Source: Candidatus Coprousia avicola (GTDB taxonomy: Bacteria > Actinomycetota > Coriobacteriia > Coriobacteriales > Coriobacteriaceae). From it: 41,717 nt of DNA. The translations under genes and the position numbers were made by a program. The DNA lies in contig DVMF01000027.1 in NCBI GenBank assembly GCA_018715125.1, positions 1 through 41,717 on the forward strand, written 5' to 3'. Shown piece by piece: positions 1 through 41,717 of the stretch; within the stretch, counting starts at the first letter, position 1, and each line of letters opens with the position of its first letter. A model generated the notes under the pieces. It made no database searches. It was not told the DNA's origin and saw only the letters and a program-made list of their open reading frames with translations.

Positions 1-424
1 AGATGATGAGCTCGAACGCCTCCGAGAGCCCGCAGGCGGCGAGCACCTCGCGGATATTCTCGAGCGGGGACGACGAGGCGAGCGCCACCCTGACCCCGCG
101 GTCTTTGAGGCCGGCAACGGCCTCGAGCACCCCGGGGTTCAGCAGCGAGGCATAATCGCACGTCCGCTCGGCAACCCAATCGTTGTAGGCGCGCGCGACG
201 TCATCGGTGCCAAACGCCTTGCCCGCCCGAGCGTACCAATCGACGAGCATGCGCACAAAGGCCTGCGTGGACTGGCCGACCTGGGCGTTGAGCTCCTCGT
301 CGGTCACGTCGATGCCGAGGTCGTCTGCCAGGGCGCGCAGCTCGTCCCAGTAGTAGCGCTCGGAGTCAACGATGACGCCGTCCATGTCGAAGATGACGGC
401 TTTGAAGGGGAAGGTCTCGCTCAT
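1..424 (-). CDS. HAD family hydrolase (beta-phosphoglucomutase-like), 3' end cut by window
   Basis: The minus-strand reading frame starts at the ATG at 424 and runs off the left edge, giving about 141 N-terminal residues. The start of the protein carries the HAD nucleophile motif FDMDGVIVDSE (DxDx[VT]), followed by a helical cap region and then VALASSSP, which fits HAD motif II (Ser after a hydrophobic strand). This is the layout of subfamily I HAD phosphatases and phosphomutases such as beta-phosphoglucomutase or phosphoglycolate phosphatase. The substrate cannot be told from sequence. It lies 65 nt downstream of a second HAD gene on the same strand and may be co-transcribed with it. The C-terminal Lys and Asp motifs lie outside the window. 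Confidence 0.88.
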   Translation of the reverse strand, partial: MSETFPFKAVIFDMDGVIVDSERYYWDELRALADDLGIDVTDEELNAQVGQSTQAFVRMLVDWYARAGKAFGTDDVARAYNDWVAERTCDYASLLNPGVLEAVAGLKDRGVRVALASSSPLENIREVLAACGLSEAFELII

Positions 425-11997: not shown

Positions 11998-12417
11998 ATG
12001 GGATTCTGGGATCGTTTTCGCGCGGCGGCAGGCGACGCGGGCTCTGCTGACGGCGCCAACCCCGCCAGCGAGCGCAGCCCGCTCGAGCGCGGGCTCATCG
12101 AGCGCCTGCAGGGCGAGCTTGAAGCCGCGACGCCTCCCACGCTCAGGTTCTACCTCCGCTTCACCGGCCGCGTGCAGGGCGTCGGCTTTCGCTGGACCAA
12201 CATGAGCATCGCGAGCAACCTCGGCCTCGCCGGGTGGGTCAAGAACCTCGACGACGGCTCGGTCGACATGGAGATACAGGGCACGCCGGCGGGCATCATC
12301 CGGCACCTCGACACGCTGCACGACAACTATCGGCGGATGCGCTGCCGTATCTGGCTCGAGGAGCTCGTCGAGGAACCGGCGAAACCGGGCGAGACGACGT
12401 TTCGGATGGCAAACTAG
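11998..12417 (+). CDS. Acylphosphatase with N-terminal extension
   Basis: 139-residue protein. The acylphosphatase core starts near residue 48: RFYLRFTGRVQGVGFRWTN carries the catalytic Arg65, and GWVKNLDDGSVDMEIQG carries Asn83. The enzyme hydrolyses acyl phosphates in the cytosol. Typical members have about 90 residues; this one has about 45 extra residues at the N-terminus (MGFWDRFRAAAGDAGSA..., mixed charged and Ala-rich). The ATG at 11998 is preceded by ACGGGAGGTCATCCT, so the extension appears to be translated. Its role is unknown. Confidence 0.92.
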   Translation: MGFWDRFRAAAGDAGSADGANPASERSPLERGLIERLQGELEAATPPTLRFYLRFTGRVQGVGFRWTNMSIASNLGLAGWVKNLDDGSVDMEIQGTPAGIIRHLDTLHDNYRRMRCRIWLEELVEEPAKPGETTFRMAN

Positions 12418-41301: not shown

Positions 41302-41333
41302 GCTTCAACCCGCGCGCCGCCGGGAGATGCAAC
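41302..41333 (-). repeat. Degenerate terminal CRISPR repeat
   Basis: These 32 bases align without gaps to the array repeat at 20 of 32 positions, and ten of the twelve differences are transitions. The next intact repeat begins exactly 33 nt later, the usual spacer length here. It fits a decayed repeat at the trailer (oldest) end of the array, with the 33-nt spacer at 41334-41366. Confidence 0.65.
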
Positions 41334-41366
41334 GGAGACGGCGGGAAGCGTCACGTAGCCGTCAAA

Positions 41367-41717
41367 GTTTCAATCCACGCACCCGTGAAGGGTGCGACGT
41401 AGGCGTCTGACGCCCTGCCGACGACCGTCCGGTTTCAATCCACGCACCCGTGAAGGGTGCGACCCTCAGGGGGCTTGGGCTCTCGGTCAAACCGTGGTTT
41501 CAATCCACGCACCCGTGAAGGGTGCGACGTCATGGGCACCCACGGGAGCCCCCGACGGCGGCAGTTTCAATCCACGCACCCGTGAAGGGTGCGACGTAGG
41601 CGTCTGACGCCCTGCCGACGACCGTCCGGTCAATCCACGCACCCGTGAAGGGTGCGACCCTCAGGGGGCTTGGGCTCTCGGTCAAACCGTGGTTTCAATC
41701 CACGCACCCGTGAAGGG
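41367..41717 (-). CRISPR. Type I-C-like CRISPR array, trailer end, cut by window
   Basis: Repeats of 32 bp start GTTTCAATCCACGC and end GAAGGGTGCGAC on the plus strand: 41367-41398, 41432-41463, 41497-41528, 41564-41595, 41629-41658 (lacking two T) and 41692-41717 (cut). Spacers are 33, 33, 35, 33 and 33 nt. The repeat contains the stem GCACCC/GGGTGC and, read on the minus strand, ends GTGGATTGAAAC as in type I-C systems, so crRNA is made from the minus strand and the leader and cas genes should lie beyond 41717. Spacers 4 and 5 are identical to spacers 1 and 2. Confidence 0.97.

Follow-up and report, generated by a model that had tools for sequence, protein, structure and literature searches.

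In Candidatus Coprousia avicola, a type I-C CRISPR array probably carries, at its leader-distal end, a tandem duplication of its three oldest intact repeat-spacer units. The duplication would have been generated by misalignment between repeats, and the loss of two T residues from one repeat is probably a separate event. The window (the whole stretch of 41,717 nucleotides that was analysed) is the complete contig C93 of the assembly G000 (2.42 Mb, 93 contigs), and the array fills its final 351 bases. Copies of a 32-nt consensus repeat (GTTTCAATCCACGCACCCGTGAAGGGTGCGAC) begin at 41367, 41432, 41497 and 41564, and a fifth repeat, beginning at 41629, is 30 nt long and reads GTCAATCC where the others read GTTTCAATCC, TT being absent. 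The features of this end of the array, in window coordinates, are as follows:

41302..41333, minus strand, decayed terminal (leader-distal) repeat, matching the consensus at 20/32 positions and set exactly 65 nt ahead of the first intact repeat
41334..41366, minus strand, spacer S0, the oldest and unduplicated, 33 nt separating the decayed terminal repeat from the first intact repeat
41367..41398, minus strand, intact repeat
41399..41431, minus strand, spacer S1, copy 1, same as 41596-41628, with a 31/33 protospacer in IMGVR_UViG_2802429438 followed by GAA
41432..41463, minus strand, intact S1/S2 repeat, copy 1
41464..41496, minus strand, spacer S2, copy 1, same as 41659-41691
41497..41528, minus strand, intact S2/S3 repeat
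41529..41563, minus strand, spacer S3, copy 1, 35 nt, same as G000:C6:30-64
41564..41595, minus strand, intact repeat at the S3-S1 adjacency, the duplication junction
41596..41628, minus strand, spacer S1, copy 2
41629..41658, minus strand, variant repeat R', 30 nt, TT deleted
41659..41691, minus strand, spacer S2, copy 2
41692..41717, minus strand, sixth repeat, truncated where the contig stops, its final 23 nt identical to the opening 23 nt of C6, on which S3, S4 and the later spacers follow

The two copies of S1 (33 nt each) are identical, as are the two copies of S2 (33 nt each), and identity of such 33-mers by chance in this stretch has a probability of about 1e-15. The order S1-S2-S3-S1-S2 over 41399-41691, which the initial annotation had read from the letters together with a TT-less repeat after the second S1, is thus borne out by exact spacer copies and by the 30-nt length of that repeat. 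Two elements had escaped that reading. S3 recurs as the first spacer of contig C6, and the array extends further to the left than its intact repeats, with S0 and a decayed terminal repeat occupying 41302-41366. The latter is the best match to the repeat outside the array within the window, where neighbouring phases score 6–11 and shuffling gives p of about 5e-5. Across the units of C93 and C6 together there are 44 distinct spacers, and S1, S2 and S3 are the only ones that recur.

Elsewhere in the genome the repeat occurs only on contig C6, which holds the repeat core from its second base and 43 repeats, with the spacers in the order S3, S4, S5 and onwards. Past this array come the leader and then cas2-cas1-cas4-cas7c-cas8c-cas5c-cas3 on the minus strand. 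The products of cas8c/csd1, cas5c and cas7c/csd2 score above the cut-offs of their models (TIGR01863, 382 bits; TIGR01876, 200 bits; TIGR02589, 370 bits, respectively), and cas3, cas4, cas1 and cas2 were assigned to the same operon by Pfam and NCBIfam matches. The system is a complete type I-C CRISPR-Cas, sharing with this type all seven genes, the repeat hairpin, a leader adjoining cas2 and a TTC PAM (seen for S1), and showing no unusual feature. Since the leader and the cas genes lie on C6 and on the minus strand, the array is transcribed from C6 towards C93, and the end that lies in the window is the leader-distal, oldest one; the decayed repeat at 41302-41333 agrees with this polarity. Two further repeats of the C6 array (G000:C6:400-427 and 599-626, in stretch L035) carry single-base changes.

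The adjacency of the two contigs is established independently of the repeats by a sister genome, G006 (~95% identical), in which the C93 flank up to window position 41123 matches at 94.8% and the C6 flank from position 12168 onward matches at 92–96%, both on a single contig, with order and orientation preserved and ~13 kb between them. A second sister genome, G003, shows the same flank order. C93 and C6 can be joined, and their exact end overlap is 23 nt; short overlaps, of 17, 21 and 25 nt, are also found at other contig breaks of this assembly. Contig-end overlaps in this assembly vary (131, 127, 114, 110, 25, 23, 21 and 17 nt), so that a fixed assembly k-mer overlap was dropped as a test of the break, no single k fitting these sizes, and the overlaps give no verdict between a real duplication and an artefact. 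At the other end of the window, a 17-nt overlap (window 1-17 = G000:C75:1-17) joins contig C75 and restores an uninterrupted HAD-hydrolase frame.

The joined array reads S0-S1-S2-S3-S1-S2-S3-S4 and onwards, with a period of three units. Its two blocks measure 197 and 195 bp, their sole difference being the missing TT, and the block is repeated contiguously with its order kept, S1-S2-S3-S1-S2 on C93 being followed by S3 at the head of C6. Recombination between repeats duplicating a repeat-spacer block, as originally proposed, is still the best reading, but the block had been taken as two units and, because C6 begins with S3-S4, it comprises three (S1-S2-S3). A two-unit block (S1-S2) was rejected for the same reason. 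A single tandem duplication creates a single new adjacency, here S3-repeat-S1, and the junction within the repeat at 41564-41595 is an intact 32 nt that keeps the array frame. The small deletion had been placed at a junction of the event; instead, it lies within the second copy, in the repeat that separates S1 from S2. With the junction repeat intact, the TT deletion is not a scar of the duplication event, an origin at the recombination junction was rejected, and the deletion is probably a separate event. In the predicted crRNA, the TT-less repeat keeps the same hairpin. The second S1 crRNA would have a 5' handle two bases short, the handle of the first S1 copy being normal.

In the proposed sequence of events, identical repeats would have misaligned, by replication slippage or unequal exchange, doubling (repeat-S1)(repeat-S2)(repeat-S3) in tandem and forming the new S3-repeat-S1 junction. 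Afterwards, a separate TT deletion would have arisen, or become fixed, in the second copy's S1/S2 repeat. It is within this second copy that the assembly breaks, and C6 holds the remaining units together with the leader and the cas genes. Additional copies of S1-S2-S3 may have been lost at the contig break. There is a slim chance that the block with the TT-less repeat (S1'-S2-S3) has been amplified at the array's old end to several copies, in which case the dosage of very old spacers directed against a resident provirus family would be raised.

We infer that the duplication is present in the real chromosome, although its location exactly at a contig end tempers confidence, and the initial annotation was sound in warning of an assembly error at this place. 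If the true array were S0-S1-S2-S3-S4 and onwards, an assembler that looped from the repeat after S3 back to the repeat before S1 would have left the last ~120–150 bases of C93 spurious. We consider this unlikely but worth weighing, given that the assembly is fragmented into 93 contigs and that this one terminates in an identical 32-nt repeat. The 23-nt overlap between C93 and C6 is itself repeat sequence, common to any two array ends, and the presence of S3 on both contigs, near the boundary, is expected under an artefact as well. Additionally, C6 begins with TCAATCC, the exact point at which the variant repeat diverges from the normal one, and this point could be a boundary shared in the assembly graph. 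However, a mis-threaded copy should be identical letter for letter, and the TT difference between the copies argues against a plain recopying of identical reads. The other ambiguous ends in the assembly break with overlaps and without looping, and a precise loop to S1 would have chosen one of ~45 possible targets. C6 opens with S3, the next spacer expected of a second copy, which favours a real duplication.

Two other explanations appear much less likely. If the assembly is a metagenome bin, as a smallest contig of 2.6 kb among 82 of the 93 contigs suggests, some cells could carry S1-S2-S3-S4 and others the duplication with the TT-less repeat, the contig end reflecting the mixture. Array rearrangements do segregate in populations (PMC8047081), but a second allele has no direct evidence and no further array contig was found in G000, so that this reading appears improbable; if true, a fraction of the cells would still carry a genuine duplication. 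That S1, S2 and S3 were each taken up anew, independently, is barely credible. The array does show what looks like repeated acquisition from a single target: two C6 spacers seven positions apart (G000:C6:1879-1912 and 2345-2379, L035) are 94% alike with a one-base offset, as though variants of that target had each supplied a spacer. However, acquisition adds spacers at the leader end, on C6 and 43 repeats away, re-acquisition would not reproduce a series of three spacers with both order and ends conserved, and it accounts for only 1% of complex events in a survey of arrays (PMC11472070). Leader-end re-acquisition was rejected as contradicted by the array polarity.

Block duplication is a rare but well-known type of rearrangement in CRISPR arrays, and repeated spacer blocks are established (PMC8047081; PMC11472070). 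The usual proposed mechanism is misalignment between identical repeats in replication, or unequal exchange (PMC8047081). SpacerPlacer flagged ~3% of spacers as duplication candidates and classed 86% of these as simple duplications; no potential duplication was present in 171 of the 333 array groups, in contrast to the remaining 162 (PMC11472070). The present duplication is an ordinary new instance of this phenomenon, sharing with known cases a contiguous spacer block in order and an intact junction repeat. It differs from them in its leader-distal location, at the array end usually described as the more stable (PMC8047081), and in the 2-nt deletion inside one copy, which makes it a marked case of array slippage in which reads can distinguish the copies. 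Among 13 stretches with the same repeat in other genomes, duplicates were mostly absent, with one non-adjacent duplicate (L041). The comparison with relatives that had been suggested at the outset yielded no array with the same spacers, G002 carrying a different array and G006 and G003 having no type I-C system.

A search of the spacers for phage targets, also suggested initially, succeeded in part. For S1, a 31/33 match lies in the viral contig IMGVR_UViG_2802429438, where GAA follows on the window strand; in crRNA orientation this gives 5'-TTC, the PAM expected of a type I-C system, the PAM evidence being from this one protospacer. The largest open frame over the match belongs to no PHROG family, so that the viral label of the target, a putative provirus, rests on the collection. 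No exact seed match in the viral contigs was obtained for S0, S2, S3 or the two C6 spacers that are 94% alike, and GenBank phages were matched by 0 of the 44 spacers.

The region from marR to the C6 flank is a variable defence site. The type I-C system next to marR occupies it in G000 (window 41123 to G000:C6:12168), whereas a type I restriction-modification system is found there in the sister G006 (L223:2166-15510) and type I restriction-modification with a type IV restriction enzyme in G003 (L224:6316-18207). In G006, a 550-aa gene (L223:7921-9573) between the hsdM-like and hsdS-like genes of this restriction system weakly matches a profile for prokaryotic Argonaute (E 1.9e-10).
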